This document shows, one piece after another, positions 14,366 through 18,726 of a stretch of 64,000 nt of DNA (the first letter of the stretch is position 1; every line of letters starts with the position of its first letter). The position numbers and the translations under genes were made by a program. The notes beneath the pieces were generated by a model. The model was given only the letters and a program-made list of their open reading frames with translations. It had not been told where the DNA came from and did no database searches. Source of the DNA: Hansschlegelia beijingensis (lineage in GTDB: Bacteria; Pseudomonadota; Alphaproteobacteria; Rhizobiales; Methylopilaceae); contig NZ_JACIDR010000004.1 in the NCBI RefSeq assembly GCF_014196425.1, forward strand, positions 124,001 through 188,000, in the 5' to 3' direction.

Positions 14366-15607
14366 ATGGCAAGAACGATCCTCGACATCACGCGCCTGCT
14401 GACGCGCGCCAGCCACCCGGCCGCCACAGGCGTGGACCGGGTCGAGCTCGCCTACGCCAAGCGTCTTCTCGGCGCGCCGCAGGTCGGGCGCGGCTTTGCA
14501 GCCGTCGTGCGCGGCAGGACCGTCCCGTTGCCGGACGAGGCCGTGGCGGCGTTCGTCCAAGCCCTGGACGCGCAATGGCGCGCCGGCGCCGGAAACCCGG
14601 CCGCGGCGCGACGCGTCGCCGAATGGCTCGGGGCGCCGGCCCCTGAGGCCGCCGCGCAAGTCTCCAGGGCCGGAGAGGCGGCTCGCCGGGCGCTCCGGCT
14701 GAGGCTGGGAGCCGCCCTCACGACGCGAGCCGCTCCCGAGCCCGGCGACCTCTATGTCCATGTCTCCCATCTCCGGCTGGACCGGCCGGAGGTGTTCGCC
14801 GGGGTCCGCAAGGCCGGCGCCGCGCTTGCGATCATGGTGCACGACCTCATCCCGATCCGCTTCCCGGAATATGGCCGGGCGGGCGAGGCGGAGCGGCACG
14901 CGCGCCGCATGAACACCGCGCTTCGATACGCCAGCACGCTGATCGCGAACTCCGCGGAGACGGCGCGGGACCTTTCAGCCTATGCGACGGAGACCGGCCA
15001 GCCTGTTCCGCCCGTCGTGGTGGCCCCGCTCGGCGTGGAGAGCGGGTTCGCGCGCGCCGCCCGGCCGCTTGCGGCCGAGCGCCCGTACTTCGTCGCGCTT
15101 GGGACGATCGAACCGAGGAAGAACCACCTCCTGCTGCTTCACGTCTGGCGCCGGCTCGCTGAGCGGCTGGGGCCCGCCACGCCCCGACTGGTCCTTGTGG
15201 GGCGCCGGGGCTGGGAGAACGAGATGGTGGTCGATCTGCTGGAGCGCTGCCCGGCCGTCCGCGCCCACGTTCTGGAGGTGAACGAGCTCCCGGATGAGGC
15301 GCTCGCCTCCTTGGTGGCGGGCGCGCGGGCGCTGCTGTTCCCGAGCTTCAGCGAGGGCTTCGGGCTGCCTCTGGCGGAGACGCTGGCGATGGGCGCCCCG
15401 GCGATCGTCTCGGACCTCGCCGTCTTCCGGGAGGTCGCGGGCGATCTCGCGCTGCGGCTGGACCCGCTCGACGGGCCGGCCTGGGAGAAGGCCATCGTCG
15501 CCCACGCCACAGAGCATCCGGAACAAGGACGACGGGCGACGGAGTACCAGCCGCCGAGATGGGAGGAGCATTTTGGGCTCCTCGGCGCTGCGGGCCTCGC
15601 GATCTAG
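14366..15607 (+). CDS. Glycosyltransferase family 4 (group 1)
   Basis: A 413-residue GT-B fold transferase. The C-terminal nucleotide-sugar domain is clear: YFVALGTIEPRKNHLLLLHVW, LVLVGRRGWEN and the E-x7-E signature in SEGFGLPLAETLA. The N-terminal half (DITRLLTR ... HDLIPIRFPEY) resembles mannosyl/glucosyl transferases of exopolysaccharide clusters. It lacks membrane segments and works at the cytoplasmic face. It faces the polysaccharide exporter genes convergently and likely contributes to the same cell-surface glycan; donor and acceptor are not predictable. Confidence 0.88.
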   Translation: MARTILDITRLLTRASHPAATGVDRVELAYAKRLLGAPQVGRGFAAVVRGRTVPLPDEAVAAFVQALDAQWRAGAGNPAAARRVAEWLGAPAPEAAAQVSRAGEAARRALRLRLGAALTTRAAPEPGDLYVHVSHLRLDRPEVFAGVRKAGAALAIMVHDLIPIRFPEYGRAGEAERHARRMNTALRYASTLIANSAETARDLSAYATETGQPVPPVVVAPLGVESGFARAARPLAAERPYFVALGTIEPRKNHLLLLHVWRRLAERLGPATPRLVLVGRRGWENEMVVDLLERCPAVRAHVLEVNELPDEALASLVAGARALLFPSFSEGFGLPLAETLAMGAPAIVSDLAVFREVAGDLALRLDPLDGPAWEKAIVAHATEHPEQGRRATEYQPPRWEEHFGLLGAAGLAI

Positions 15608-15664: not shown

Positions 15665-17206
15665 TCAGGCGCTGTGGTCGCGGATGCCGTAGAAGATCAG
15701 CGCGCCGATCGCCCAGGCGATGGTCGAGCACACCAGAACGAGCAGGATCATCTGAAGACGCGCCGGATAGAGCGAGTCCTCCGGGAGATGCGGCTCGACG
15801 AAGGTCGCGAGATAGCGCGACTGGCGTTCCGCGGTGATGCGCGCGGCGTCGACCGCCTGGCTCGCCTGCTGATACGCCTTCTGCGCGAAGTCCCGCTCCA
15901 TGGCGAGGTTCTCGAACTCCGCCATCGAGGCGGAGATCAGGGTTTCCTTGCTGCCGGTCCGAGGCTGCACCGAGCCGATCTTCGCGCGTTCCGCCGCGAT
16001 GCGCGATTTCAGCGCCTCGACGTTCTTCTGCATGAAGCGGACGGTCGGCGCGTCCTTGTTGAGGAACGCGGAGCTGGCCGACAGCTCGGCCTCCTGCTTG
16101 GCCAGCTGGCCTTCCAGGTCGGCGACGATCTTGCTCTGCCCCTCGACGAGGCTCTGCGCGTCCGGCGCGCCCTGGCGGTCGCGATAGTCCTGGATGGCCT
16201 TCTGGGCGAACTTCAGCCGCAGTTCGGCGCGCGACTGCTCCTGCTTGGCGAGCATCAGGGCGTCGTCGCGCGCGCGCGCTGAGAGCTTGTTGACGAGGTT
16301 CTCGCTCTCGCGGACCGTTTCCCGCGCGACCTTGAGCGCGTCTTCCGGCGTGAAAGCGCGCACCGTGAAGGTGATGATCCCGGTGACGGGCTCGTAATAG
16401 ACCCAGGAGACGGAGTTCCAGTACCGCGTCAGATGCTCGACCGTGTCGTCGAAATCATAGGGCCGGTACTTGGCGACGAAATCCGCGTTCTCATGCGTGT
16501 AGATCGAGCGCAGATCGAGCGCGCGCTGCATGTTCGCGACGATCTGGCCGCTCTCGATGTATTGCGCGACGATGAAGCTGTCCGAGGCCATTCCGGCCAT
16601 GCTGGTGCCGAGGCCGGTCATCGCCGCGATCGCGTCGCCGCTGCCGCCGGCGACTTCGGCCGGGCCGCGCACCGCAAAGCGCGCCTCGGCGACGTATTGC
16701 GGAGAGGCGATCACCCCGTAATAGAGCGCCGCGAGCGCGGTCGGCAGGGCGATGCAGAGCCAGGCCGAGATCTTGACGACGTTGCGCTTGCGCCGCACGC
16801 CGACCGGACGCGCGGTCGGAACGACCGGCTGGTCCGGCTCCGGGGCCGGCGCGCCACGTTTCGGCGCGGCGCGGCGCGGGAGGGGGACGACCGTGTTCGA
16901 CGCCGGGCTCGCCGACGCCAGGCGGTCGAACTCCGCGTTGCCATCCTCAGGCTGGGAGCGGGCGGATCGCTTCGCCGCGCGCGCCGCCTTGGCGCGCTCG
17001 CGCGGGTTCAGCGCCGCCTCATCGTCCTGTGGCTCGGAGCCCCGCGCCGGCTCGCGCGCCGCAAGCGACGGGGCGCCCAGGAGCCGCCGCGCGGCGGGAT
17101 GCGCCGTCAGTCCGCCCGGAGCGGCGTTCGACAGGGTCTTCAGGATCGAACGGGCCCTGGCGCCGAGTTGTACCTCGACGCCCGTCCTGGCTCTGGTGTC
17201 GCTCAT
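15665..17206 (-). CDS. Capsular polysaccharide export inner-membrane protein (KpsE/BexC/CtrB-like)
   Basis: A 513-residue polysaccharide co-polymerase-type protein. A charged, probably disordered cytoplasmic N-terminus of about 130 residues precedes a transmembrane helix (about 145-165), then a large periplasmic region with long coiled coil (about 310-440, AELRLKFAQKAIQDY and following), and a C-terminal transmembrane helix near 490-505 (LILLVLVCSTIAWAIGALIF region). KpsE partners span the periplasm between the ABC exporter and an outer-membrane OPX channel. Start overlaps the stop of the ATPase gene (ATGA), giving an operon kpsM-kpsT-kpsE. No OPX (KpsD/Wza) gene is in the window. Confidence 0.86.
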   Translation of the reverse strand: MSDTRARTGVEVQLGARARSILKTLSNAAPGGLTAHPAARRLLGAPSLAAREPARGSEPQDDEAALNPRERAKAARAAKRSARSQPEDGNAEFDRLASASPASNTVVPLPRRAAPKRGAPAPEPDQPVVPTARPVGVRRKRNVVKISAWLCIALPTALAALYYGVIASPQYVAEARFAVRGPAEVAGGSGDAIAAMTGLGTSMAGMASDSFIVAQYIESGQIVANMQRALDLRSIYTHENADFVAKYRPYDFDDTVEHLTRYWNSVSWVYYEPVTGIITFTVRAFTPEDALKVARETVRESENLVNKLSARARDDALMLAKQEQSRAELRLKFAQKAIQDYRDRQGAPDAQSLVEGQSKIVADLEGQLAKQEAELSASSAFLNKDAPTVRFMQKNVEALKSRIAAERAKIGSVQPRTGSKETLISASMAEFENLAMERDFAQKAYQQASQAVDAARITAERQSRYLATFVEPHLPEDSLYPARLQMILLVLVCSTIAWAIGALIFYGIRDHSA

Positions 17207-17877
17207 GTGCGCTTGCTTGCCCTGCCTGCGGTCAACTTTTGGTACGCCTCAGACGCAGCTTCGAACGTATCATAGAATGTTAGAGCACCTTGGTCGAGGA
17301 CCAATCCTGCATCGCAATATCCTGCGACCAGGTCGGGGTTCGTGGTCGCCCACACCACCCCCGCGGCGCTCATCCGATGCGCGATCACGCTGTCGATCTC
17401 CGCGATGCGCGACTTGGCGACCCGGGGGAGGCGCTCGTCGATGAAGTACCAGTCGAACTGCAAGGCGAGAGTGAGGCCAAGCGCCAGCTGCCCCCGCTCA
17501 GCGAGCGTGTACCTCCTGAGCGGCTTTCCCTTCCGGAGCTTGACGCCGCTGAGCTCGGTCGCGATCGCGGCCACGTCGCCGGCGTCCACGCCATAGATGT
17601 AGCTCAGGAAGTTGGCGTTCTGACGAAGCGTTCCGGCGAGGTCGAGAAACTTGCGATGGCCGAACGGCCAGCACGGCATGCCGACCCGGCGCACGGCTCC
17701 CCGGTCGGCGTGCTCGACGCCTGCGAGCATGTGCAGCACCGACCGGTTGTCGGCCCTGTCCGCGCCCAGCAGCGCGACGCGCCGGCCGGCCGGCACCGAA
17801 AGGCTCACGCCGGCGAGCATCCAGCGCTGCCGGCCCTTCGATTTCGTGCCCTTCCAGACGTCCCGTAATTCAAGCAT
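17203..17877 (-). CDS. KpsT-like ABC transporter ATPase with degenerate nucleotide-binding motifs
   Basis: A 224-residue protein with the length and framework of KpsT/BexA ATPases of polysaccharide exporters, sited between permease and KpsE genes. The Walker A position (residues 38-46) reads GADRADNRS: both inner glycines and the catalytic Lys are gone. The signature LSGGQ is replaced by LAERGQ (in TLAERGQLAL), and the H-loop His by Thr (WATTN). Walker B with the catalytic Glu (YFIDERLP) is kept. The frame is intact, so the gene is probably expressed. It may be a non-hydrolysing structural ATPase-fold subunit, pairing with an active one encoded elsewhere, or be decaying. Confidence 0.8.
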   Translation of the reverse strand: MLELRDVWKGTKSKGRQRWMLAGVSLSVPAGRRVALLGADRADNRSVLHMLAGVEHADRGAVRRVGMPCWPFGHRKFLDLAGTLRQNANFLSYIYGVDAGDVAAIATELSGVKLRKGKPLRRYTLAERGQLALGLTLALQFDWYFIDERLPRVAKSRIAEIDSVIAHRMSAAGVVWATTNPDLVAGYCDAGLVLDQGALTFYDTFEAASEAYQKLTAGRASKRT

Positions 17878-17889
17878 CCGCGCTGCCCG

Positions 17890-18726
17890 TCAGGCGGGAC
17901 GGAGCTTGTGACGGAGGGCTCTCTCGCCAGCCAGGCCTATCAGGATGAAGCAGATCGTGACCCCGAACAGGTAGCTGAGACTGAGAGAGGCGCAAACGTA
18001 CCCCGGATAGAAGCCCTCCCGGAACCACTCGATGCAGTGCAGCAGCGGGTTCCAGAGGAGGATCTCGCGTATCCGCGGCGGGACCCTGTCGATCAGCATC
18101 GAGAAGCCCGAGGTGATGAACAGCGCCAGCATGATGATGTGCTGAAAGTGCCTCAAGCCCGGCGCCAGCGTCATGACAAGCGCCAGCATCAGGGAGAAGC
18201 CGAAGGTGTAGAGCGCTGTCGCGCCGAACGCGGCGAGACAGGTCAGAAGGTGAGCCGGCCGCGTCTCGAACCCGAAGAGCGCCATGCCGGCGAGCACCAC
18301 GACCATCGCGACCCCGCCGGTGGCCATCTCGAGGATCCAGGTCGCGTATGCGGCGTCCAGCCGCTGCAGCCCCGGCAGCATCCGTTTCCGGCGCAGGAGC
18401 ACGCCCGACGTGCTTTGCGCCACCGTCCGCCATGTCCTGGCGATGATCACGCCGGTCGCGAAGAAAACCTCGTAGCTGGTTCCGACCGGCGGCAGGCCGG
18501 CCGCCTTGTCCTGGATCGCGAACTTCAGGATGAACACCCAGCAGATGGGCTCGACGATCGCCCAGATGTAGCCGGCGCGCGACGTCGCGTACTTCGTGCG
18601 GATCCGTCGCAGGATCAGCGCAAAGATCGAACGCATCTGGAGAGAGAAGGAGGCGGCGACGTTCAATCGCGATTCCCTTGCGGCCCTGCGCGGCGCGCGA
18701 GCAGGACCTCGTCTGCGCGAGATCAT
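17890..18726 (-). CDS. ABC-2 type polysaccharide export permease (KpsM-like)
   Basis: About 278 residues with six predicted transmembrane helices in the ABC-2 arrangement. The family-specific cytoplasmic N-terminus is LQMRSIFALILRRIRTKYATSRAGYIWAIVEP; the last loop carries LLWNPLLHCIEWFREGFYPGY, characteristic of KpsM/RfbA/CtrC. It would form the inner-membrane channel for capsule or similar glycan. ATG 18726 is the longest start; the conserved part begins near residue 30, so a shorter start is possible. First gene of the export operon, 12 bases ahead of the degenerate ATPase gene. Confidence 0.87.
   Translation of the reverse strand: MISRRRGPARAPRRAARESRLNVAASFSLQMRSIFALILRRIRTKYATSRAGYIWAIVEPICWVFILKFAIQDKAAGLPPVGTSYEVFFATGVIIARTWRTVAQSTSGVLLRRKRMLPGLQRLDAAYATWILEMATGGVAMVVVLAGMALFGFETRPAHLLTCLAAFGATALYTFGFSLMLALVMTLAPGLRHFQHIIMLALFITSGFSMLIDRVPPRIREILLWNPLLHCIEWFREGFYPGYVCASLSLSYLFGVTICFILIGLAGERALRHKLRPA

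Follow-up and report, generated by a model that had tools for sequence, protein, structure and literature searches.

The window, a stretch of 64,000 nucleotides from the genome of Hansschlegelia beijingensis (G000 below), carries a Kps-type operon on its minus strand. It is made up of kpsM1, a kpsT-like gene that we call kpsT*, and kpsE, and a GT4-type glycosyltransferase gene converges on it (Table 1). The kpsT* frame is intact, starts 12 bp after the end of kpsM and overlaps the start of kpsE with its stop, so that both neighbours expected of a kpsT gene are adjacent. The original prediction, made from the DNA alone, of an intact frame between kpsM and kpsE with coupled starts is thus borne out. 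Besides the ABC-2 membrane domain, the KpsM protein matches the KpsM family model at E = 3.2e-22, a score under that model's cut-off, and its best solved relative is the KpsM of 8tsh (E = 1.2e-18). The KpsE protein matches the BexC/CtrB/KpsE family model at E = 9.1e-69, again under the model's cut-off, and about 145 residues precede its conserved domain. By eye, this N-terminal stretch is rich in arginine and proline and is a possible cytoplasmic docking arm. A scan for promoters and terminators gave nothing useful.

Table 1. Features of the kps locus, in window coordinates.
Feature	Position	Strand	Description
GT4-type glycosyltransferase	14366..15607	+	convergent with the kps genes
kpsE	15665..17206	-	polysaccharide co-polymerase, BexC/CtrB/KpsE family, 513 aa
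kpsT*	17203..17877	-	KpsT-family nucleotide-binding subunit, degenerate ATPase motifs, 224 aa
H-loop, lost	17338..17355	-	KpsT* residues 175-180, VWATTN (canonical VSHS/N)
Walker B, kept	17434..17451	-	KpsT* residues 143-148, WYFIDE
ABC signature, lost	17491..17514	-	KpsT* residues 122-129, RYTLAERG (canonical TYSSGMxA)
P-loop, degenerate	17740..17766	-	KpsT* residues 38-46, GADRADNRS (canonical GxxGxGKST)
Asn44 codon	17746..17748	-	Walker A lysine position of KpsT*
kpsM1	17890..18726	-	ABC-2 membrane subunit KpsM, 278 aa; PF01061, E = 1.5e-12

We compared the catalytic motifs of KpsT* with those of the KpsT family. The Walker A consensus GxxGxGK[ST] is absent, RYTLAERG stands where KpsT has YSSGM (the ABC signature, SSGM in this family), and threonine replaces the H-loop histidine. 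The A-loop and D-loop residues are likewise changed. The Asp-Glu pair of Walker B is present (FIDE). The original prediction had read the same three losses and the retained Walker B glutamate, and it is confirmed residue by residue.

The Pfam ABC_tran model reaches KpsT* only at E = 0.12 (13.4 bits, cut-off 25). Profile comparison with six canonical KpsTs gives a probability of 100 and E = 2.7e-47 over 222 columns, and a profile of the KpsT* orthologues finds the KpsT of the solved structure 8tsi (chain A) at E = 1.1e-32. The comparison with the KpsT, BexA and Wzt families proposed in the original prediction thus comes out as homology to KpsT. Judged by these matches, KpsT* is a KpsT homologue along its whole length and should keep the fold of a nucleotide-binding domain, as a pseudo-ATPase would; beside the profile match stands only an AlphaFold model made from two sequences, which at pLDDT 38 is unusable. 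Because the defining catalytic features are missing, we do not class KpsT* as a KpsT ATPase; homologous to KpsT and placed in a Kps-type operon, it appears to be a KpsT-derived pseudo-ATPase.

KpsT* in the genus and the order of motif loss

A degenerate KpsT is present in all 13 genomes of the genus, that is, in the window genome and 12 relatives, and the ABC signature and the H-loop are gone from every one of them. Nine of the 12 relatives carry a direct kpsT* orthologue with 47-66% identity to the window protein, and 49 columns are invariant among these nine orthologues. They share one conserved neighbourhood of glycosyltransferase, kpsE, kpsT*, response regulator, ftsE and ftsX genes (the last three named by eye), with the GT4-type glycosyltransferase near the kps genes in eight of the nine; in the ninth, G010, the contig ends first. 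The remaining three relatives (G006, G009 and G011) have a second degenerate type, located between its own kpsM and kpsE, which keeps a P-loop (GGASSGKTT) and has lost the signature and H-loop. The catalytic motifs have therefore been lost across a clade and not in one copy, and we rejected the idea of a lone mutated copy among intact relatives.

Walker A is missing from eight species of the genus, namely the window, six complete orthologues and a broken copy in G007, and all eight have asparagine at the position of the Walker A lysine, while the other inner P-loop positions vary freely. This answers the search of relatives for the same substitutions that had been proposed, and a sequencing error or frameshift in the window is rejected, since the same change is common to eight species. 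The fixed Asn44 suggests a structural role, perhaps in capping the helix once held by phosphate. G003 and G004 have a perfect Walker A (GAVGAGKST and GAPGMGKST), yet the signature and H-loop are absent; their Walker B reads Asp-Asp (VDD). Walker B is also lost in G005 (INE) and G002 (INQ), and is kept in the window and four other complete orthologues that lack Walker A. In a concatenated tree of ten genomes, a branch supported at 100/100 separates the eight species without Walker A from the rest. Read from these sequences, the pattern is most simply explained if the signature and H-loop were lost first and Walker A once, later, and if the gene then outlived several species splits. The frame is open in 12 of the 13 genomes. 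The exception, the G007 orthologue, is broken by frameshifts; ftsE and other genes around it are damaged as well, which points to assembly errors.

We estimated selection in four close pairs. For the closest pair of orthologues (G008/G010, 95% identical), dN/dS of kpsT* is 0.057, beside 0.115 for KpsE, 0.144 for KpsM, 0.095 for FtsX and 0.030 for FtsE, and three pairs of the second degenerate type give 0.082, 0.109 and 0.084. These values (0.06-0.11) indicate purifying selection, as expected of a pseudo-ATPase in service; in the one pair where neighbours were compared, kpsT* is constrained like them and looks like a gene in use. Together with the loss of signature and H-loop in 13/13 genomes, selection in the pairs tested lends strong support, at the level of sequence, to the original prediction of a non-hydrolysing subunit. 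The alternative raised at the same time, an exporter undergoing decay, finds no support in the protein, given its open frames and low dN/dS, although the ATPase site has decayed stepwise and a full kpsM lies elsewhere in six of the nine relatives with an orthologue.

The export pathway and the search for another motor

The rest of the pathway is found throughout the genus, with two PF05159 (KpsC/KpsS-type) genes, a polysaccharide export (OPX) domain and a KpsM match in 13/13 genomes; in G000, an OPX protein with SLBB domains adjoins the PF05159 genes. PF05159 alone is no proof of an ABC-type export path, because two of five same-family genomes from other genera carry a PF05159 gene although no match in them is as strong as a KpsT. 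The sole full kpsM found in six related species is distant from kpsT* (L050-L055). G005 has a C-terminal kpsM remnant of about 80 residues beside kpsT* (L040:9162-9404), with the full kpsM about 63 kb away, and G000 has a second, orphan kpsM (L049:6869-7648, G000:C2), which has genes for LicD, GSCFA and glycosyltransferases around it and no Pfam ABC match nearby.

We also examined the substrate canyon of KpsM. All 11 distinct KpsM proteins that share the window's type (12 rows, with the window KpsM entered twice) retain Trp45 and Arg89; R35 and R94 are not conserved in this type. The second degenerate type has Glu in place of Trp45 and Lys in place of Arg89 in 3/3 genomes. Since R35, R89 and R94 show little conservation even among the canonical KpsM proteins of the order, and the second type lacks Trp45 and Arg89, we regard the canyon residues as a weak sign of kept or lost KpsM function.

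A canonical kpsT elsewhere in the genome, which the original prediction had suggested looking for, was not found. A canonical KpsT query against the 13 genomes of the genus returned nothing of KpsT or Wzt-like strength, with best matches of 48-115 bits; on the same scale, 81 canonical KpsTs score at least 162 bits, 14 Wzt-like or other far sequences at least 88 bits, and two positive-control genomes 245 and 215 bits. The best match is the degenerate gene itself in 12 of the 13 genomes (75-115 bits) and another ABC protein in G007 (48 bits), and the next-best match anywhere in the 13 reaches 56 bits. The five same-family genomes of other genera gave no match of KpsT strength either (best 62 bits), with at most 150 candidates scored per genome, of up to 539, in this query and in that of the 12 genomes of other families described below. 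The Pfam ABC model matches 83 times in G000, kpsT* not among the hits. In an NCBIfam scan of ten ABC proteins of this genome, nine resembled members of other families most (five importer types, LolD, GldA, DrrA and a PQQ type, with only two passing a curated cut-off) and one had no match; two of the ten adjoin an ABC-2 permease of their own. A 252-aa frame in G000 that the ABC model reaches weakly (L048:3171-3926; PF00005, E = 6e-6; no NCBIfam match at 1e-40) is a possible divergent ABC protein. The original suggestion that KpsT* forms a heterodimer with another ATPase is so far unsupported: the query brought up no partner of the KpsT/Wzt class in the 13 genomes, and the ten ABC proteins scanned in G000 include no obvious one. 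Any partner of KpsT* would therefore belong to a different kind of ABC ATPase.

Degenerate KpsTs in other families and orders

A draw of genomes across the order found a KpsT match in 129/397, a lower bound with seven candidates scored per genome; even same-genus G009 and G011 were missed in this way. We read the loci for 123 of the 135 rows listed, of which L163 gave no readable motifs. Twelve further genomes, from six other families, have KpsTs that lack the signature and in which the H-loop is lost or displaced. With the canonical query used above, the best match in these genomes reaches 133 bits, short of the strength of a canonical KpsT, although two of them encode a Wzt-like protein whose motifs are canonical, next to a KpsM-like permease (L181 and L183). 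Among 13 degenerate loci outside the genus read with their flanks, kpsE is near in 10 and kpsM in 4, and two have neither, one of these being cut by a contig end. Three of the 12 genomes carry a second, more damaged KpsT (L030/L149 in G044, L136/L182 in G102 and L128/L180 in G259), and such pairs prompt the question whether two inactive subunits might form a heterodimer. Acidic C-terminal tails occur on L140, L143, L145, L153, L160 and L182 of other families, unlike the KpsTs of the genus, whose tails are short and basic or mixed. Degenerate KpsTs extend beyond the order and to one more of its families, at L205 (f94), L208 (f56) and L209 (f42), with no recognisable motif at all in L208. A search of the class found a KpsT match in 284/385 genomes, with motifs read in part of these loci, and tblastn with the window protein matched 326 plasmid records, the 20 listed showing 29-32% identity.

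We asked whether a longer KpsE N-terminus accompanies a degenerate KpsT. Measured from the end of the kpsT frame, the KpsE core begins after a median of 109 codons in 37 degenerate loci and of 75 in 52 canonical ones, with 28 loci unassigned and near-duplicates counted; the ranges overlap, and the idea was dropped.

We built trees to follow the origin of the degenerate KpsTs. A first count of motifs called 90/154 loci canonical under a stricter rule that scored variant signatures as lost; the laxer rule used for the main tree gives 96 canonical and 25 degenerate sequences. The 121 rows of this tree come from 153 KpsT-like loci, of which ten were skipped as other ABC families, fragments or a duplicate (L002-L005, L016, L033, L035, L042, L071 and L163) before identical rows were removed. 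Once the motif columns are taken out, a single branch with SH-aLRT support of 95 divides the 25 degenerate sequences, themselves on long branches, from the others. A smaller, hand-chosen tree of 49 rows that omits the longest branches (L149, L180, L182 and L207-L209) again places them on one side, with support of 93. A broader tree with degenerate rows of other orders needs two changes, and most of its deep forks are weak; 41/154 rows were left out of it, mostly far or near-duplicate ones, as was L206, which looks degenerate and is readable no further than the P-loop. Treating the two KpsT types of the genus as one clade is not rejected (p-AU 0.7). On these trees, a single origin of all degenerate KpsTs is likely, with the uncertainty that long branches bring.

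A possible scaffold role of KpsT*

Our preferred reading, held with moderate confidence, is that KpsT* is a conserved pseudo-ATPase, most likely a structural element, a cap or scaffold, in a capsule exporter of the group-2 type whose driving force comes from elsewhere. We observe the loss of motifs, KpsT ancestry, conservation throughout the genus, selection in the tested pairs, no other KpsT with a canonical query and the rest of an export pathway. KpsT* would no longer bind or hydrolyse ATP by the normal mechanism. It may dock under KpsM inside the KpsE cage and there tie the enzymes of chain building to KpsM and KpsE, with the export force supplied, for example, by chain growth or an unrelated ATPase. 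In favour of an exporter role we count the complete set of pathway genes and the retained Trp45 and Arg89 of the window-type KpsM; against it, kpsM is often not a neighbour of kpsT*, R35 and R94 vary and the second type has Glu for Trp45. An assembly of KpsM with KpsT* is not certain because the full kpsM lies away from kpsT* in 6/9 relatives. According to PMC11041684, KpsMT sits within a KpsE octamer in the solved system, and a single Walker B change in KpsT, E151Q, abolishes secretion in this closest studied system; an exporter of the KpsT* type that does without its own ATP use would for that reason contradict the known mechanism. Tentatively, and with less than even confidence, we extend the scaffold reading to a whole lineage of alphaproteobacterial capsule exporters that may have given up its own ATP motor, KpsT becoming a conserved non-hydrolysing scaffold and the polymer being moved by another force. 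In that lineage, the signature and H-loop would have gone first, followed by Walker A and B, several times.

The chief rival, which we find unlikely, is an exporter powered in trans, with an ABC ATPase of another family acting on KpsM either alone or paired with KpsT*, which would form the inactive half of a heterodimer. There are precedents for heterodimeric ABC transporters in which one site is degenerate, KpsM is retained even where kpsT* is not adjacent, and G000 has ample ABC proteins, among them a GldA/DrrA-like ATPase (L217) with no partner assigned. However, no candidate of KpsT or Wzt-like strength emerged from the 13 genomes and no obvious one from the ten proteins scanned, and a composite site would still need the KpsT* signature, which is lost. 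Less probable still is that KpsT* has left transport and become a regulator or envelope organiser, for instance by tuning KpsE or by signalling, with KpsM used otherwise. Such a role would fit the company of kpsT*, which in 6/9 relatives with the orthologue and in all five f18 loci has kpsE, but no full kpsM, as a neighbour, and PMC4264864 reports that KpsT loss in Bordetella pertussis changes gene expression apart from the capsule itself; the KpsC/KpsS-type genes, OPX and KpsM are nevertheless all kept in 13/13 genomes, as a working export path expects.

The two other explanations concern the gene itself. A pseudogene in decay whose frame has by chance stayed open could account for the absence of Walker A, the signature, the H-loop and the D-loop, for that of Walker B in part of the species, and for the broken copy in G007, but it is largely refuted by the selection estimate in four pairs, and the open frames, the invariant columns and the broken neighbours in G007 make it very improbable. 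We give the least credence of all to continued use of ATP through unorthodox residues, with Asn44 and the Walker B pair Asp147-Glu148 replacing the P-loop. The invariant asparagine and the Walker B kept in five proteins without Walker A speak for such a site, but INE in G005 and INQ in G002 leave no conserved acidic pair, and the signature and H-loop are lost throughout the genus.

If the scaffold reading is true, KpsT* belongs to an ABC transporter that is no longer driven by ATP through its own cassette. ABC transporters are defined by two ATP-burning cassettes, and an exporter whose sole cassette subunit of its class is degenerate would be a natural experiment on what cassettes do besides hydrolysis; what pushes a long polysaccharide through KpsM would become testable in a methylotroph. 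There is also a warning for annotation, as the Pfam ABC model misses KpsT* and genomes may seem to lack the gene, while gene order alone could credit a genome with a working motor. In the extracts of open-licence PMC papers that our literature search returned, we found no description of a degenerate or pseudo-ATPase KpsT, nor of one in related genera.

Among known systems, the Wzt and TarH ATPases of O-antigen and teichoic acid exporters (6amx and 6jbh) are distant relatives (E = 2.3e-14 and 1.2e-7), and their motifs are intact, whereas those of KpsT* are degenerate. The heterodimeric ABC transporters with one degenerate nucleotide site, TM287/288, TmrAB and CFTR, resemble KpsT* in that a non-consensus nucleotide-binding domain is kept by selection; they differ in that their partner supplies a consensus site, and no partner of the KpsT/Wzt class was found here. 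Closest is the KpsMT-KpsE exporter (8tsi and 8tsh), to whose KpsT the window protein is homologous over its whole length and to whose other chains the window KpsM and KpsE are homologous, but KpsT* differs from that subunit in having no Walker A, signature or H-loop.
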